This document shows, in pieces, positions 41,348 to 48,971 of a stretch of DNA of 52,043 bases (position 1 is its first letter; each line of letters begins with the position of its first letter). The notes under the pieces were generated by a model. It was given only the letters and a program-made list of their open reading frames with translations, was not told the origin of the DNA and searched no databases. Made by a program: the position numbers and the translations under genes. The DNA comes from Ancalomicrobiaceae bacterium. GTDB lineage: Bacteria; Pseudomonadota; Alphaproteobacteria; Rhizobiales; Ancalomicrobiaceae. The stretch covers positions 1 through 52,043 of the forward strand of contig JARLIU010000200.1 in assembly GCA_031291595.1 (NCBI GenBank). Direction: 5' to 3'.

Positions 41348-42646
41348 TCAGTTCTTCTGGCTCTGCCAGGCGGCCTGGACCGTGGCCATGCCCTGTGCGG
41401 GCGTCTGGTCGCCGGAGGCGACGGCCGCCAGCGCGTCTTCGAGCGCCTGCTTGACCGCCGGGCTCTTGAGCTGGCGGGCGTAGCGCACCTTCGGCAGCCA
41501 CTCCTCGGTGAAGAGCGTCCACACCGCCTTCTGGTTGTCGGACTGATAGACCTGCGGGTTGATGCCCTTGAAGGCCGGCAAGTCGTTGAAGGTGTTGATC
41601 AGTTCCTGGGCACCCGCCCCGCTGACCCAGTCGGCGAGCACCTTGCATGCCTCGTCGACATGCTTCGACTTCTTCGAGATGCCGATCATCAGATCGATGC
41701 CGCCAAGCGGGTCGTTCGGGCGTCCCTTGCCGGTCACGTCAGGGAACAGCATGGGGGCATAGCCGTTGAGGGCGACCGAAAGCTCGGGCGGATTGGGGCG
41801 GGTCGCCTGCTGCTGCCACCACGCTCCCTGCGGAAAGGTCGCCGCCCGTCCGCCCTCGGTCAGTTCCATCGCCTGAGGCGAGACCGACAGCCCGAGCGCG
41901 CCGGGCTGGATGATGCCGTCGTCGAACAGCTTCTTCCACACCGTCATCGCCTCGACGAAGGGAGCGTCGGTGAATTTGGCGGTGCCGTCCTCGGCCTTGT
42001 AGATCAGCCCCGGCGCGACGTTGTGGATGAGCTGCATATAGACGTCGCGGCGTTCCCAGCCGTCGGCTGCGCCGACCAGCATCGTGGCGATGCCCTTGCC
42101 GCTCAGCTTCGGCACCATCTTCAGCATGTCGTCGTAGCTCTTGGGGGGCTGAAGGCCAGCTTCCTTGAGCACCGGGATCGTGTACCACATATTGATGGTC
42201 TGGGTCAGGACCGGCAGGGCATAGTAATTCTCGTCACCCTTGACGTTGCCAAGCCGGATCTGGTCGACCGCCAATGGGAAGAACTTGCTCTTCCAGTCGG
42301 CGCCCCACGATTTGACGGCACAATCCTGCAGCGGCAGCAGGAAGTCCTGGTATTGCCGGGTGAGAGCGCCCGGCTCGAGACCGATGAGGTCGGGCATGTC
42401 GTCGCTGGCAGCTCGCGTGTGCAGGTCGACGATATAGTCGGGATAGTTGAAGATCTTGTAGTCGATCTTGATACCGGGAAGCTTGGCTTCGGTCGCGACC
42501 GCCATCTTGGCAGTCGTTTCGACGATCGGGCTCCAGGTCCGGAAGGTGACCGTCGTATCCGCTGCGTTGACCGGTTGGGCTGACATCAAGACAGCCGCCA
42601 GCGCAAACAAGGACGCGCCGTCCCGCGCTTTGCTCAGATCCATCAT
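41348..42646 (-). CDS. Extracellular sugar-binding protein of an ABC importer
   Basis: A 432-residue periplasmic binding protein of the CUT1 class. The signal peptide is residues 1-28 (MMDLSKARDGASLFALAAVL then MSAQPVNA, mature from about ADTTVTF). Hallmarks include FRTWSPIVE at the mature start, GTAKFTDAPFVEAMTVWKKL and FPQGAWWQQQ. GGGAG precedes ATG 42646. First gene of the nine-gene leftward operon; it determines the ligand, a mono- or oligosaccharide not predictable from sequence. Confidence 0.94.
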   Translation of the reverse strand: MMDLSKARDGASLFALAAVLMSAQPVNAADTTVTFRTWSPIVETTAKMAVATEAKLPGIKIDYKIFNYPDYIVDLHTRAASDDMPDLIGLEPGALTRQYQDFLLPLQDCAVKSWGADWKSKFFPLAVDQIRLGNVKGDENYYALPVLTQTINMWYTIPVLKEAGLQPPKSYDDMLKMVPKLSGKGIATMLVGAADGWERRDVYMQLIHNVAPGLIYKAEDGTAKFTDAPFVEAMTVWKKLFDDGIIQPGALGLSVSPQAMELTEGGRAATFPQGAWWQQQATRPNPPELSVALNGYAPMLFPDVTGKGRPNDPLGGIDLMIGISKKSKHVDEACKVLADWVSGAGAQELINTFNDLPAFKGINPQVYQSDNQKAVWTLFTEEWLPKVRYARQLKSPAVKQALEDALAAVASGDQTPAQGMATVQAAWQSQKN

Positions 42647-43040: not shown

Positions 43041-43080
43041 AACATGCCACGAATGGAACATCGAAATGGGAGGATTGAAG

Positions 43081-43749
43081 ATGATTCAGCGCGACCAGGC
43101 TTACGACGCCTTCACGAGATATCTGCTCGAAAGGAAGTTGATGCCGGGTCAGTTCGTCTCGCAGCGGGAATTAGCCGAGATGACGGCACTGCCGCTCGGC
43201 GCCATCCGCGAGATGATCCCCCGTCTCGAAGCGGAGGGACTGCTGAAGGCCTTCGCCCAGCGTGGATTGCAGATCGTCCACATCGATCTTCGCATGGTGC
43301 GGGAGGCCTTCCAGCTGCGCGAAATCATCGAGACCGCCGCCATCCAGGCCTTCGTCAGAAACGGCTCCGCCGCGGCTCTGGAGGCCCAGCGGCGCGCGCA
43401 TGAAGTGCTGTTGCGGGCGGTCGAGCAGAGCTCGCCGGAATTGCTTAGCGAGGCGCAGGCGGTGGACTGGTCGTTCCACGACTTCCTCGTCGATGCGATG
43501 GACAATGACCTGGTGAAGAACGTCCACAGGGTCAATTCGATCCGCATCCGCATGATCCTGCAGGACAGGATCGGACTGTCGCCAGATCGCATTCCCTACG
43601 TGTTCGACCAGCATCATCGCATCATCAACGCCCTCGAGGCGCGCGATGCCGCCGCCGCGACACAGGCCATGCTCGCCCATCTCGCCAGCTCCCGGCAGCG
43701 GGCGCTGAATTGGGCCGGCGGCGTCAGCGTCGTCGACGACCCCGAATAG
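43081..43749 (+). CDS. GntR family transcriptional regulator, FCD domain
   Basis: A 222-residue regulator. Winged helix at residues about 5-68 (MPGQFVSQRELAEM, LGAIREMIPRLEAEGLL) and FCD effector domain at about 75-205 (REAFQLREIIETAAIQAFV, DWSFHDFLVDAMDN, FDQHHRIINALEARD), whose Asp/His residues usually bind a metal that helps hold the ligand. The start is ATG 43081: GGAGG at 43069-43073 is perfectly spaced from it, whereas the frame ATG at 43066 stands before that site. It is divergent from the sugar operon, which it most likely represses until a sugar-derived acid binds. Its stop is only three bases from the end of the convergent M75 gene. Confidence 0.92.
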   Translation: MIQRDQAYDAFTRYLLERKLMPGQFVSQRELAEMTALPLGAIREMIPRLEAEGLLKAFAQRGLQIVHIDLRMVREAFQLREIIETAAIQAFVRNGSAAALEAQRRAHEVLLRAVEQSSPELLSEAQAVDWSFHDFLVDAMDNDLVKNVHRVNSIRIRMILQDRIGLSPDRIPYVFDQHHRIINALEARDAAAATQAMLAHLASSRQRALNWAGGVSVVDDPE

Positions 43750-43752
43750 CCG

Positions 43753-44583
43753 CTACTTCACCCCGAGAACGCCGCGCAGCTTCGACAGATCTTCGGCAAG
43801 CGCGGTCACCGGGCCGCGAAGCGCCGTGCGATCCTTCTTGCTCAGGGCGTCGTAGCTCTCAAATCCGTCGCCGGCGGTCGAATATTTGGTCAGAATTGCC
43901 TCGACCTTGGTGAAGTTGTCGTCGAGCCGCGTCTGCAGCTTGGCATTGGCCTTGCTGGTCAGCGGCTGCAACAGGCTGACGATCTGCCTGGCTCCGTCGA
44001 CATTGGCCTTGAAATCCCACAGGTCGGTGCGGCTGTAGCGGTCCTCTTCGCCGCTGATCTTGGTTTTGGCGATCTCTTCGACGAGTTCGGCCGCACCGCC
44101 GACGACCTTGCCCGGGGGCAACGTCAGACCCTGGATGCGCGACTGCAGTTCGGTCACGTCGGCGAGCAGCTTGTCGGCCAATGGCCCAAGCGCATCTGTC
44201 GACTTCTTGGCGTACAGCCCGTATTCGATCCGGTGGAACCCGGTGAAGTTCGGGTCCGCTTCTTTCGCAGCGAAATCGTCGGCGCGCACGTCGATGCTCT
44301 TGTCCAGGTCGCTGAACTGGTCGGCGACCGGCTCGATGCGCTCATAATGCACTCGGGTCGGCGCATAGAGCGCCTGCGCCTTGGCCAGGTCGCCGGCCTT
44401 GACGGCCTCGGTGAAGTCGTGCGTCGCCTTGACCAGGGCGTCGACCTCGCCGGCGACGTAGATCTTGTAGTCGGCGATCGGCGCGACCAGGTCGGCCGGG
44501 GCGATCACCGAGGCGGCCGAGGCGACACCGCAGGCACCGAGCAAGGCAAAGCCGGCGGCGGAAACGGATAGACTGAGCTTCAT
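43753..44583 (-). CDS. EfeO-type M75/imelysin protein without cupredoxin domain
   Basis: A 276-residue exported protein: signal peptide to about residue 24 (AAGFALLGACGVASA; the Cys might be lipidated), then an M75/imelysin domain. It carries the HxxE motif of the family at His117-Glu120 in GFHRIEYGLY. It lacks the N-terminal cupredoxin that full EfeO has. It starts 74 bases after efeB as the fourth gene of the iron cluster. The HxxE motif is thought to bind metal in EfeM/EfeO-type proteins. Because the upstream EfeO lacks the motif, this protein may supply the iron-binding function. Confidence 0.88.
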   Translation of the reverse strand: MKLSLSVSAAGFALLGACGVASAASVIAPADLVAPIADYKIYVAGEVDALVKATHDFTEAVKAGDLAKAQALYAPTRVHYERIEPVADQFSDLDKSIDVRADDFAAKEADPNFTGFHRIEYGLYAKKSTDALGPLADKLLADVTELQSRIQGLTLPPGKVVGGAAELVEEIAKTKISGEEDRYSRTDLWDFKANVDGARQIVSLLQPLTSKANAKLQTRLDDNFTKVEAILTKYSTAGDGFESYDALSKKDRTALRGPVTALAEDLSKLRGVLGVK

Positions 44584-44657
44584 GGTCCTGATCCTTGACG
44601 CGCGACATCGTTCGCGCTGTTGCACGTTGGGAAACGGAGCGGTTGCGGGTGCGGGCG

Positions 44658-45965
44658 CTACGTCTGCGGAGTGAGCAGTCCGTCGGCGAGGTACCCGGCG
44701 TCGGTGGCGACGCCCGGCAGAACGAAGAAATAGCCGCCGCCCACCGGGTTGATGTATTCCTCCAGCGGTTCGCCGTTCAGACGGCGCTGGACAGCCAGAA
44801 AGCCGCTCTCGAGGTCGGCTTGGAAGCAGACGAACAGCAGTCCCATGTCCAGTTGCCCCGACGCGGTGACGCTGCGGCTGTAGTTGTAGCCGCGCCGCAA
44901 AAGGAGGCTCGACGCCGTCTCCGTCGTACGCGGATTGGCGAGCCGGATGTGCGCGTCGAGCGGGATGCGCAGGCCCTTGGGATCGCTGGCATAGGCGGGA
45001 TCGTCGTGTTCGCGGGATCTGCCGAGCGGAGCGCCGGTCGCCTTATCGCGGCCGATGATCCCCTCCTGCTCCTGCAGCGGCGTACGATCCCAGCGTTCGA
45101 CGAACTGGCGGATGATGCGGACGACCTGATAGGTGCCCCCAGCCGCCCAGCGCGGTTCGTCCGAGCCAGGCTTGACCCACACATGCCGGTCCATCAACTC
45201 AGGATCGGTCGACCTGAGGTTGGCGGTACCGTCCTTGAAGCCGAGCAGATTGCGCGGCGTCGGCTGCGCCGGCGCGTGTCCGAACGACAGCGGCTCGACC
45301 GGCAGAAAGCCGTCCTGCATCCAGCGCACCGCCAGCTGGTCCGGCGTCGTCTTGATGATGTCGCGGAGGGCGTGGATGACGGTATCGGCGCCGCTGGCAC
45401 AGATCTGCAGCATGAGATCGCCGTGACACAGCTCTTCCTGCAGCGAATCGTTCGGGAAGCCTGCCATGGCGACGAGTTGGCGCGGCTTCCGCGCCGCCAG
45501 CCCAAAGCGGCCGTCGAACAGCGAGGCACCGACGGAAGCGGTGATGGAGAGGTCGTCCGGCTGGATCACCGGGCCGACGATGCCGGAATCCGGCGGCGGG
45601 AATTTCGGATCGATCGCCTCGGGCGTGCCACCATGCATCAGGAAGCGGATGCGCTCGGTCAACCGCTTGAACATCTCCTGCAGCTCGTCGCGCGAGGTGG
45701 CGAGGACGTCGAAGGCCACGACCATGCCATGCGCCTGCTGCGGCGTGACGACGCCGGCTTGGTGCCGGCCATGGAATCGCAGCCGATGCCGACCCGAGGC
45801 GGCCGCGTCGATTGGCCGGTGCGGCCGCACCGCCGCGTCGGCGGACAGCGATCCGTCGATCGTCAAGCCGCCGAAGGCCGCGAGTCCGGTCAGCAGGCCG
45901 CGCCGCGAGGGTTTTGCGGCGGCAAATGCAAACGGGCAGCCGGAACGATTGTCGTGCTCGCTCAT
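44658..45965 (-). CDS. efeB: Deferrochelatase/DyP-type peroxidase
   Basis: A 435-residue haem peroxidase of the DyP superfamily. A Tat signal (SRRGLLTG at 20-27) predicts folded export. The GxxDG motif is LLGFKDGTANL near residues 238-248, with the catalytic Asp; FHGRHQAGV is the conserved N-terminal motif. EfeB proteins oxidise ferrous iron for EfeU uptake and have been reported to release iron from haem. Start ATG 45965 overlaps the efeO stop in ATGA, so the genes are translationally coupled. Confidence 0.94.
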   Translation of the reverse strand: MSEHDNRSGCPFAFAAAKPSRRGLLTGLAAFGGLTIDGSLSADAAVRPHRPIDAAASGRHRLRFHGRHQAGVVTPQQAHGMVVAFDVLATSRDELQEMFKRLTERIRFLMHGGTPEAIDPKFPPPDSGIVGPVIQPDDLSITASVGASLFDGRFGLAARKPRQLVAMAGFPNDSLQEELCHGDLMLQICASGADTVIHALRDIIKTTPDQLAVRWMQDGFLPVEPLSFGHAPAQPTPRNLLGFKDGTANLRSTDPELMDRHVWVKPGSDEPRWAAGGTYQVVRIIRQFVERWDRTPLQEQEGIIGRDKATGAPLGRSREHDDPAYASDPKGLRIPLDAHIRLANPRTTETASSLLLRRGYNYSRSVTASGQLDMGLLFVCFQADLESGFLAVQRRLNGEPLEEYINPVGGGYFFVLPGVATDAGYLADGLLTPQT

Positions 45966-47074
45966 GATTGGCTCAATCCCAGCGTGGAGGCCAGCTTGCC
46001 GACATCGCCGGCAAGGGCGGTCAGGGCGCCGCTGAGCGCGGGGCGGTCGATCGTCGCCAGGGCGATCGCCACAGCGGTCGGGGGCAGCAGCCGGTCGATT
46101 TCGGCGAGTTCGGCGGCAATGCGTTCCGAGCCCGCCTTGTCAGTCTTGGCGACGATCGGCTGGAACAGCTCGACGATCTTGCGCACGCCTGCCAGCCTGG
46201 CGCGCAGATCCGCCGCGTCCGCCGGCCGATCGAGCGCGCCGGCGTTCGAGGCTTGCGCGACGACTGCGGCGAGCCCCGAGGCGGCTCCCTTGACCATCGC
46301 CTCCGGGCTGGCGCTGACCGACTTGAACTGCGCCTGCAGTCTCGCCACGTCGGCGCCCAAGGCGCTCGCCACAGGTGCAAGCCCCGCCGTCGACCGCTCG
46401 ACCAACAACCCATGCGCCAGCGCGCCGAAGCCGGTCGATGCCGGTTCGCTGCCGGCTTCGGGTGGCGCGGCATCGATCCGGCCATCGAGATCGCCGAACA
46501 GCACCGCCACCGGCTTCACGTGGAGATAGGCGGCCCGCATGGCGGCAAATTGCATGGTGGCTGCGCCAAGATCGCCTGACCTGATCGCATTTGCCAGCGC
46601 GCTTCCGGCCGAGACCAGCGTCGCGATCTCGCCGTGGAGATAGACGCGATATTCGGCTGTCGGTCCGACCAGATCGGCGGCGGTCGGCGTTGCCGGCGCC
46701 GCGGTCGCCTGCGTCGTGCCGGGAGCTACGATCAGCTTGCCGCGCGGATTGCTGAGCAGTCCGCAGGTGATCTCGTAGTCGCCGGCCTCGAGCTCCGTCG
46801 TCAGTTTCTGGGTGAAGCCCGGCGCGATGTTCTCGCGCTCGTCGACCACCATGACGCCCTTGAGGATCTCCCATTCCAGCGCCCGGGTGCTGCTGTTGAC
46901 GATCTGAAACGTCGTCGTTCCGGCCGGAACCGTCAGCAGGTTGGGGGCGCACCCCTTGGCCGTCACCGTGACCACGACGGGGGCACGCGCCGTCTCCGCC
47001 GCATTCGCTCCGGTGTGACAGGCGGCGGCCACCGCCACGGCCGCTACCAGCGTATCTAGAAACCGCTCGCTCAT
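45962..47074 (-). CDS. efeO: EfeO iron-uptake protein: cupredoxin plus M75 domain lacking HxxE
   Basis: A 370-residue periplasmic protein. Residues 1-26 are the signal; 30-118 form a cupredoxin with the conserved EfeO core LEWEILKGVMVV and ERENIAPGF, with Cys42 and Cys104 (TCGLLSNPRGKL) retained. The C-terminal M75-like part (about 133-370) is degenerate: where the family has GFHRIEKGL, this protein has GFGALAHGL (residues 215-223), so the HxxE motif is lost. ATGA overlaps link it to efeU upstream and efeB downstream. Cupredoxin function is probably intact; iron binding by the M75 part is doubtful. Confidence 0.9.
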   Translation of the reverse strand: MSERFLDTLVAAVAVAAACHTGANAAETARAPVVVTVTAKGCAPNLLTVPAGTTTFQIVNSSTRALEWEILKGVMVVDERENIAPGFTQKLTTELEAGDYEITCGLLSNPRGKLIVAPGTTQATAAPATPTAADLVGPTAEYRVYLHGEIATLVSAGSALANAIRSGDLGAATMQFAAMRAAYLHVKPVAVLFGDLDGRIDAAPPEAGSEPASTGFGALAHGLLVERSTAGLAPVASALGADVARLQAQFKSVSASPEAMVKGAASGLAAVVAQASNAGALDRPADAADLRARLAGVRKIVELFQPIVAKTDKAGSERIAAELAEIDRLLPPTAVAIALATIDRPALSGALTALAGDVGKLASTLGLSQS

Positions 47075-47901
47075 CGCTTCGCTCCGGCTGGGATGGCGGC
47101 CGGTCGCGCCGAGACGAACAGGACGAGCGCCGGCAAGAGATAGGCAAGGTAGACGCCGACCTCGCTCACGGTCGGCGCCTCCTGGTAGCCGAACATGCCG
47201 CCGAGCAACGTCCCGAGCACGCTGTCGGATGGCAGCACGCCGGAGAGATCGAACACCACGGCCTGCCACCCATTCCAGATCCCGGCCTCGTGCAGGGCGC
47301 GAATCGATCCGGCGAGCAGTCCGGCGGCGACAAACAGGATCAGGATTCCGGTCCAGCGGAAGAACAGTTTGAGGTCGATCCGTACGCCACCGTAGGTGAT
47401 GGCCGCTCCGAACCCGACGGCGACCACGAGGCCGGCCACCGCGCCGATCGGCGCTGCGATCCCGACGTCCTGCTGGAAGGTGGCGAGCAGGAAGAACACC
47501 GATTCCAATCCCTCGCGGGCCACCGCAAAAAACGCCATTGCCGCCAATGCCCAGCCGGTGTCGGCGGATCGGTCGAAGGCCGCCTCGATCGATGTGCGCA
47601 TGGTGGCGCCGATAGACTTGGCCGCCCGCTTCATCCAGAACACCATGCCCGTCAGCACGACCACGGCGATCATCCCGATCGCTGCCTCGATCATTTCCTG
47701 CAGCCGCTGCGGAAATTCGGCACTCAGCCAGTTGAGCGCGACCCCGATGGCGAGACACATCGCCGCCGCGACCGCCGCTCCGACCCAGACCGCCGGCATC
47801 CATGCCCGGCGTCCGGTCTGCGCCAGATAGCTCGCGACGATGCCGACGATCAGAGCCGCCTCGATGCCTTCCCGCAGCATGATCAGAAACGGCACGATCA
47901 T
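47071..47901 (-). CDS. efeU: Ferrous iron permease, FTR1 family
   Basis: A 276-residue membrane protein with about seven hydrophobic segments. Both FTR1 iron motifs are present: REGIE at 10-14 and REGLE at 129-133. GAGGG stands nine bases before ATG 47901. It is first in the efeU-efeO-efeB unit, an acid-induced, low-pH ferrous uptake system in E. coli; the nearby gad pair would fit acid exposure, though they are 30 kb apart. The upstream region is AT-rich with a candidate metal-regulator dyad. Confidence 0.94.
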   Translation of the reverse strand: MIVPFLIMLREGIEAALIVGIVASYLAQTGRRAWMPAVWVGAAVAAAMCLAIGVALNWLSAEFPQRLQEMIEAAIGMIAVVVLTGMVFWMKRAAKSIGATMRTSIEAAFDRSADTGWALAAMAFFAVAREGLESVFFLLATFQQDVGIAAPIGAVAGLVVAVGFGAAITYGGVRIDLKLFFRWTGILILFVAAGLLAGSIRALHEAGIWNGWQAVVFDLSGVLPSDSVLGTLLGGMFGYQEAPTVSEVGVYLAYLLPALVLFVSARPAAIPAGAKR

Positions 47902-48016: not shown

Positions 48017-48971
48017 ACAATATAGATAAGTTGTAAAGTTCGGACCGAGCCGATCCGCCGTCACATTAGAACGATTCTACGCACTGCGCCCGAAACGAAT
48101 GGCTATGGCGCTTGGCGTATTCGCGGTTTGAACGCGATATTGTGGCGTTTTGCATGTTTGATTTTGCTACTCGGACGCCGATCCACCCGCCGTGCCGGTA
48201 GCGGGACGGCATCGCCCGCGGGCCGCAGCTTGGGCCAAGCTGGGTGCTGCGGTGGCAGGAAGATGCGGAGAGACAGGACCAAACGGCAAATCGACCCGGA
48301 CCGGAGGTGGCCGCATTGATGCAGCTGTTCCTTGGCTCCATGTAGCGTGGCGCGCTTCGAGCCACTTGCGACGGTAATGCGCAAGTCTTTCTGCCGCAAC
48401 GCTGCAGCCAGACCTCAAACATCCCGCGGCGCCAGACAAGGATGACGCTCGCGCCGCCATCATGTAGTCATCATCTCGTTGCGCAAGCGGCATGTCAGGC
48501 AATCAATGCGACCGATACCTGGAGCGGCTGCCTCGCATCTGCTTCAAGTCCGGACGTCACAATTTTATGTTGAGGAAAATTCGGTAACACCGAAAATTAA
48601 CCCTTGGCGAGTTAATAGTGTTGATTGTTGAGATTAGCCGATTGCGGTGAACTGCGGCGCAAGCTGCAAGGCGTTGGTTGGTTGAGGGGACGACTTGGTG
48701 GGCGGTTCAGGGTGCGACGCATGCCACCCATCGGCAATGCCCCGATTCGGGCGAGGCCGGAGGCCAGGTTCACATGTTCGGCAATCGTTGACTGACGGAA
48801 CGGTTGTGTCGTCCGTGTGCGGCAAGTCCCGCTCCCGAATGCCGCCGTGCGCGCCGTCGTCCCGCAAGCCGCACATCGTGTCTCGGCATTCCCGGCACCG
48901 CAACTCCGCGCGGCTGGATTTCGCAATTCCTCCGCATGTCGCCTGGCGATAGCATGCCTTTTGGGGGCTCC
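48017..48971. other. Gap of about 950 bases without a convincing gene
   Basis: Between the divergent efeU and GGDEF-EAL genes. Several short frames are open on both strands, but none has a ribosome binding site, hydrophobic pattern or family resemblance. A dyad TTCGGT-AAC-ACCGAA at 48580-48594 in an AT-rich stretch, followed by a TTAA-rich segment to about 48640, looks like the promoter region for the rightward gene. The rest appears to be non-coding or decayed. Confidence 0.4.

Follow-up and report, generated by a model that had tools for sequence, protein, structure and literature searches.

Predicted copper and iron sites split between EfeO and EfeM in a four-gene EfeUOBM operon of an Ancalomicrobiaceae bacterium

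A stretch of 52,043 nucleotides from an Ancalomicrobiaceae bacterium (contig JARLIU010000200.1 of assembly GCA_031291595.1; this whole stretch is called the window here) carries the minus-strand operon efeU-efeO-efeB-efeM at 47901-43753. Two of its products contain an M75 (imelysin) domain, namely EfeO, in which this domain is joined to a cupredoxin, and EfeM, which consists of M75 alone. Why does a single operon hold two M75 proteins, and which of them could hold iron? An original prediction, made from the window sequence, proposed duplication followed by complementary loss, leaving a copper or electron-transfer subunit and an iron-binding subunit. We found that EfeM keeps every scored residue of the M75 metal site while EfeO has lost most of them, and that the same kind of split recurs in four-gene operons of other bacteria.

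Metal-site residues in the window operon

The operon comprises the following features.

47071..47901, minus strand: efeU, FTR1-type iron permease, 276 amino acids (Pfam FTR1, 206.5 bits; NCBIfam EfeU equivalog)
45962..47074, minus strand: efeO, cupredoxin plus degenerate M75 domain, 370 amino acids (Pfam, NCBIfam and alignment with 7wgu)
46721..46984, minus strand: conserved cupredoxin domain of EfeO, about residues 31-118 (Pfam Cupredoxin_1; model strands at 33-117)
45971..46681, minus strand: degenerate M75 (imelysin) domain of EfeO, about residues 132-368 (Pfam M75, 45.9 bits; fold kept in the model)
46406..46432, minus strand: GFGALAHGL in place of the HxxE motif, G217/A220 of EfeO (alignment with 7wgu)
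44658..45965, minus strand: efeB, DyP-type peroxidase/deferrochelatase, 435 amino acids (Pfam Dyp_perox N and C; NCBIfam TIGR01412)
43753..44583 from the ATG, minus strand: efeM, M75-only protein, 276 amino acids (Pfam M75, 148.3 bits)
44215..44241, minus strand: GFHRIEYGL, intact HxxE of EfeM, H117/E120 (motif alignment)

By gene content, the operon belongs to the known EfeUOBM layout. EfeU scored 318.1 bits with the NCBIfam EfeU profile (cut-off 255), identifying the FTR1-family permease of such systems, and EfeB scored 501.4 bits with TIGR01412 (cut-off 428), identifying their DyP-type peroxidase. EfeO carries the conserved Cys, Glu, Trp and ERE of EfeO-type cupredoxins, residues that a 2010 paper reportedly describes as copper-binding. 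The extra M75-only member of the cluster is EfeM, in which Pfam detected M75 alone and no cupredoxin; together with its GFHRIEYGL motif, this agrees with the original prediction of a fourth gene for a cupredoxin-less M75 protein that keeps HRIE. The efeO gene overlaps both efeU and efeB by 4 nt, and a 74-nt gap separates efeB from the ATG of efeM, the open frame of which reaches back to a GTG at 44625. In Pfam, EfeO matched Cupredoxin_1 with 74.5 bits and M75 weakly, both above cut-off, and it barely passed the NCBIfam EfeO profile (270.9 bits versus a cut-off of 270). NCBIfam gave the label 'EfeO' to both EfeO and EfeM, which are the only Pfam M75 matches in the genome of the window.

To score the metal site, we used the 11 positions of sites III and IV given in excerpts of PMC9174327 (Y82, E90, E93, E97, D103, D107, H126, E129, E179, E189 and D190), tolerating F at 82, D at 97, E at 103, and E or N at 190. 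Window EfeM had lost none of these positions, and the motifs of Algp7 and Escherichia coli EfeO are retained in it. Window EfeO had lost 7 of the 11, leaving HxxE, GEEDRY and the acidic site IV set incomplete. In the alignment with E. coli EfeO (7wgu), its residues 215-223 read GFGALAHGL against GFHRLEKAL, so that H is replaced by G217 and E by A220; GALDRP stands for GEEDRY, and YLHVKPVAVLFGDLD stands where E. coli EfeO has YERIEPIAELFSDLD, while the cupredoxin half aligns closely. The loss of HxxE from the cupredoxin-bearing EfeO was thus as predicted, and the prediction understated how far the loss extends. Overall, window EfeO retains 54 of 100 M75 columns conserved elsewhere, and its M75 domain is only 36% identical to that of EfeM.

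These results supported that an intact and a degenerate site are complementary in two neighboring proteins. This part of the predicted duplication with complementary loss held; a former cupredoxin in EfeM is only a possibility, since a duplication of M75 alone would look alike. We consider it reasonably probable that the EfeUOBM operon divides two jobs held by a single EfeO in the three-gene EfeUOB system. EfeM would serve as the periplasmic iron holder, an M75 protein with the metal lodged in the cleft formed by its two helix bundles, and the EfeO cupredoxin would be kept for copper binding or electron transfer; the anatomy of the sites fits the predicted iron and copper subunits, with metal binding by either window protein being presumed from its residues. 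The M75 domain of EfeO would no longer form a metal site or bind iron; its remaining role may be that of a folded scaffold or a docking part, with EfeU, EfeB or EfeM as the probable partner. The likely history would begin with two intact M75 domains, as in the genus Labrys (see below), followed by a loss in EfeO that would affect E179 and E90 almost always and HxxE only in a minority of cases, the window included.

EfeO in operons with and without EfeM

Using the window EfeO as a query, we searched 397 genomes of its order (38 matches, own genome included), 385 of its class (5 matches) and 398 of its phylum (24 matches), samples that partly overlap. Operon stretches were fetched for all survey matches except G237, G250, G277, G709 and G1062, the window itself serving for its own genome. 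From a genome-collection scan the best 80 of 585 relatives were taken, so this set is biased towards EfeO most like that of the window. Surveys with Pfam PF09375 gave mainly other-type imelysins among the matches listed, and EfeO protein queries were used instead. Genes of each locus were typed by phmmer, and for named loci "without EfeM" refers to the fetched stretch, at most about 8 kb on each side. L147 and L197 were dropped as duplicates (same contigs as L074 and L078), the very distant L107 and L108 were excluded from the cupredoxin, charge and operon-tree counts, and L106 and L133, which have no adjoining EfeO, were left out when the operon tree was built and in part of the group counts.

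The survey revealed that EfeO without a neighboring EfeM had lost none of the 11 positions in any of 87 cases, while EfeO with EfeM had lost at least three positions in 44 of 49. Hence, the observation that would have told against the original prediction, an eroded EfeO lacking a companion M75 protein, was made in 0 of the 87. The five intact EfeO beside an EfeM belong to four operons of a single genus, assigned to Labrys by a contig in common with Labrys sp. KNU-23, and to one Marinobacterium operon; EfeM alone therefore does not enforce loss. All positions were kept in 48 of 51 EfeM, the exceptions being L157 (one undetermined residue), L170 (a gap at the GEEDRY loop) and L106 (no EfeO beside it).

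We extended the survey to a Pseudomonas-type genus, in which P. syringae EfeM matched in 58 of 99 genomes and 20 stretches were taken. EfeO was present in 18 of these stretches, and all 18 EfeO had lost five or six positions, each with E90Q, E93A and E97Q; among the 22 EfeM-like rows, 18 were intact and the remaining four were fragments. One Pseudomonas EfeO with five losses adjoins an EfeM that shares 99% identity with the crystallized protein of P. syringae. Thus, the split is general among the four-gene operons examined, being common to Alphaproteobacteria and Pseudomonas-type genomes, and it is older than the window genome. Because the EfeUOBM layout is known and the split occurs in both groups, it is not a local event.

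Further searches around G195 (69 genomes) gave no match beyond G195 itself, and those around G1021 (229 genomes) gave only G1021 itself and a weak partial match. Irregular operons were also encountered in Pseudomonas-type genomes. L223 (5156-7435) contains a tandem second efeM with a piece of efeB between the copies, which scored equally; in L224 efeM is split over two frames, and L225 and L226 hold efe gene remnants without EfeO, operon decay as in L224. The efeUOBM operon of L175, titled Mycobacterium sp. KBS0706, lies very near Inquilinus limosus (L170 and L190) in the trees, and its organism name is doubtful.

Erosion, selection and history of the EfeO M75 domain

Among the 44 eroded EfeO, E179 was lost in all 44 and E90 in 43, and H126 and E129 were each retained in 36. 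E90 had been replaced by R or K in 26 of these proteins and E179 by R in 24, and the mean charge over the 11 positions was -3.0 in eroded EfeO versus -8.9 in EfeM. HxxE remained intact in 39 of the 49 EfeO with EfeM (H, E or both were lost in the other 10, window included), and it did not hold up as the key marker that the original prediction had made of it.

As a control, we determined retention in a set of 100 M75 columns, each showing 90% or higher agreement in EfeM as well as in intact EfeO; 10 of them were site columns and 90 were others (L170_M excluded). Eroded EfeO kept the site columns at 43% and the other conserved columns at 53% (p=0.13), and since this difference is not significant, the M75 domain appears to have loosened as a whole. 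Many of the least-kept columns fall in the stretch VVGGAA-LIEEVAATKISGEEDRYS, the HxxE helix is among the better-kept parts, and its H and E are retained above the average conserved column. These data argue against a loss aimed at the site, which found no support, and against HxxE as a marker; HxxE loss as the defining event was rejected.

Erosion across the domain and not significantly stronger at the site is in line with relaxed redundancy, by which, with EfeM present, the M75 domain of EfeO drifted without a role and was tolerated since the cupredoxin is needed. Mean pairwise identity (L100 and L105 excluded) among eroded four-gene operons was 40% for EfeO-M75, versus 62% for the cupredoxin, 67% for EfeM, 64% for EfeU and 62% for EfeB (808 pairs); in three-gene operons it was 77% for EfeO-M75 and 78% for the cupredoxin (3363 pairs). 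For eroded EfeO-M75 we then estimated dN/dS in 14 pairs of close relatives from genomes other than that of the window, some relatives serving in more than one pair. The values ranged from 0.085 to 0.21 in 12 pairs and were 0.31 and 0.52 in the other two, exceeding those of EfeM in 13 of 14 pairs, again as redundancy would have it, and those of the cupredoxin in 12 of 14; three pairs of intact Labrys EfeO-M75 gave 0.04, 0.06 and 0.22. Nevertheless, dN/dS lay well below 1 in all 14 pairs, and the eroded M75 domain is under purifying selection in the relatives. Relaxed redundancy is also at odds with the full length of the domain and its folding in the model, and with the constancy of the changed state in Pseudomonas-type EfeO, and we consider it rather unlikely.

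The AlphaFold model of window EfeO had a mean pLDDT of 87, low only at the N terminus, and its M75 half superposed on 5y4c, 7q1g and 3at7 (Algp7 and EfeM crystal structures) with TM scores of 0.84-0.85 over about 250 residues; in the model, then, the degenerate M75 domain retains the imelysin fold. The top structural match of the EfeO model was E. coli EfeO with its two domains, but as wholes the two superposed poorly (rmsd about 16), which suggests that the model arranges its domains differently. The EfeM model reached a pLDDT of 90.3. Taken with the residues lost, the eroded EfeO M75 domain is probably a folded scaffold that does not bind iron. Instead of an iron site put out of action, could it be a site newly adapted to a partner protein or to some other ligand? 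The frequent charge reversals at E90 and E179 and the retention of the HxxE residues would suit such a site, but the replacements vary by lineage and the 11 positions contain no new ligand set common to all lineages, so that this alternative appears quite improbable.

In contrast to the M75 domain, nine cupredoxin positions (C, E, W, E, E, R, E, N and C) were identical in all 43 eroded EfeO counted here, the residue preceding ERE being variable (30 E, 10 A and 3 D). ITCGLL replaced MTCGLL in 44 of 48 four-gene EfeO, with Ile in 39 of the 43 eroded ones, whereas three-gene EfeO had Met at this position in 77 of 85 cases and Ile in 5. This Met is presumably a copper ligand, and the change to Ile was not used as evidence. 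At the N terminus, most four-gene EfeO (L074-L132) bear an uncleaved-looking membrane anchor, often ending in FYYAS, whereas three-gene EfeO have a Sec-type signal; a crude count found anchor-like segments in 36 of 66 four-gene versus 2 of 85 three-gene EfeO.

For the history of the split, trees were built after thinning near-copies and long rows. In the M75 tree, with the site columns removed, all 31 eroded EfeO formed one clade (100/98), three intact Labrys EfeO adjoined it (99/81), and 35 EfeM formed a separate clade (90/97). Judged by the site scores and this tree, the loss in EfeO looks derived, and Labrys, with both proteins intact, looks like the state before it. Gene conversion behind the intact Labrys EfeO is not favored, because EfeO and EfeM of Labrys lie in different parts of the M75 tree. 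In the tree of EfeU, EfeB and cupredoxin, Labrys grouped with 25 eroded operons (97/95) and five other eroded operons fell outside, placing Labrys between two eroded groups. A single clade of all eroded operons was borderline on this tree (p=0.054 with the window and p=0.071 without it), and parallel erosion in separate lineages is therefore suggested rather than demonstrated. In Marinobacterium lutimaris (L203), where the genes run efeU-efeM-efeO-efeB, both M75 domains are intact and fall among three-gene EfeO in the tree, pointing to a duplication of its own.

The window may be a further separate case of the split. By this account, which we hold to be a tentative possibility and which is compatible with the division of two jobs, its split arose from a three-gene operon in parallel to the main EfeUOBM group. 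In the tree of EfeU, EfeB and cupredoxin, the window weakly joined the three-gene operons (88/81, not starred), and in the M75 tree its EfeM lay outside the main EfeM clade; its EfeO and EfeM M75 domains as sisters were not rejected (p=0.335), and its EfeO start (46985-47074) resembles by eye the signal peptides of three-gene EfeO. However, uniting every four-gene operon other than that of Marinobacterium in a single clade was not rejected either (p=0.475), nor was a position of the window EfeM inside the EfeM clade (p=0.265). Its EfeO-M75 clustered with those of L074 and L079 (98/96), possibly a long-branch effect, and the U-O-B-M gene order is common to other four-gene operons. A recent duplication within the window genome is opposed by the low identity of the two M75 domains and by the widespread pattern, even with the sister arrangement not rejected.

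Several points weigh against the division of two jobs. Most sampled EfeO without EfeM come from Enterobacterales (69 of the 71 named loci among the 87, judged by record titles), 5 of 49 EfeO with EfeM stay intact, and the site columns eroded no more than other conserved ones at the significance reached. The trees provide only two independent contrasts of EfeM presence versus erosion, which have no statistical power. According to excerpts of PMC3577903, a FepA mutant with HxxE changed to AxxA still supported haem-iron use, which counts against HxxE as a key marker and implies that a loss in sequence need not be a loss of function; the same excerpts note that crystallized M75 proteins had contained no metal by 2013. 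The wider claim that EfeO M75 in four-gene EfeUOBM systems is generally a conserved pseudo-binding docking domain, neutralized or charge-reversed, with the copper and iron steps on separate proteins, a state reached more than once, seems doubtful to us.

Around the operon, efeM is followed at a distance of 3 nt by the end of a convergent GntR/FCD regulator gene (43066-43749), with a gene for an SBP_bac_8 solute-binding protein (41348-42646) beyond it. A perfect palindrome, TAGAA-N3-TTCTA, is located at 48067-48079, 166 bp upstream of the efeU start, and it is Irr-box-like. No second exact copy occurs in the window, where shuffles gave an expectation of 0.00, or in the genome; its backwards control likewise occurs once per strand in the genome, and the palindrome core, with at most one mismatch, was present in only 9 of 138 other efe operons. 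The window is a whole contig of a 319-contig genome with 3.4% contamination, and an EfeO match was found in 0 of 14 other genomes of the family that were searched, so the operon may have been acquired from elsewhere, or else the contig may have been binned into the wrong genome.

Comparison with known systems

The EfeUOBM name has been in use since 2010, and two papers of that year reportedly define the EfeO-cupredoxins and EfeM. In our literature search we recognized no description of M75-site loss in EfeO of EfeUOBM systems, and those two papers may mention it.

The E. coli EfeUOB system (7wgu) has homologous EfeU, EfeO and EfeB with a well-conserved cupredoxin; it differs in having three genes, an EfeO with both cupredoxin and M75 site intact, and no EfeM. 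The imelysin operon PA4370-PA4373, as described in excerpts of PMC3143127, likewise pairs a GxHxxE M75 protein with an IPPA-type protein whose His is not conserved (GxxxxE), but it belongs to another M75 branch, lacks EfeU, and no cupredoxin is mentioned in these excerpts. FepA/YwbM of Firmicutes (PMC3577903, excerpts) is also a cupredoxin-less M75 protein of an efe-like operon, yet it is the sole EfeO-like protein there, without a cupredoxin partner. FtrABCD (PMC11966278, excerpts) shares an FTR1-type permease and a small periplasmic cupredoxin, and divergence of FtrB is tied to operon content; its other components differ, and no M75 protein is described in the excerpted text.

The same layout is seen in EfeUOBM of P. 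syringae, which in excerpts of PMC9174327 comprises an FTR1 permease, a cupredoxin-M75 EfeO, a DyP EfeB and an M75-only EfeM. For P. syringae EfeM an iron content of about 1.5 Fe per protein was measured, and its site III/IV residues are the same as those of the window EfeM. According to excerpts of PMC9174327 and PMC3577903, it is unclear how EfeO divides the labor of iron uptake between its cupredoxin and its M75 domain. Four-gene systems seem to separate the work of the two domains, so that either step could be studied by assays on a single protein, and Labrys offers a natural case with both proteins intact. Our data also suggest that databases apply the single name EfeO to two proteins whose predicted abilities differ. 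In the excerpts of PMC9174327, one common scheme serves for the M75 domains of both EfeO and EfeM, with sites conserved in the selected alignment of that paper. In contrast, the site is gone from the window EfeO, which compared with P. syringae-type EfeUOBM has additionally lost HxxE, and it is also eroded in the Pseudomonas-type EfeO beside the 99% identical EfeM, which suggests that the common scheme, as far as those excerpts present it, fails for EfeO of four-gene systems.

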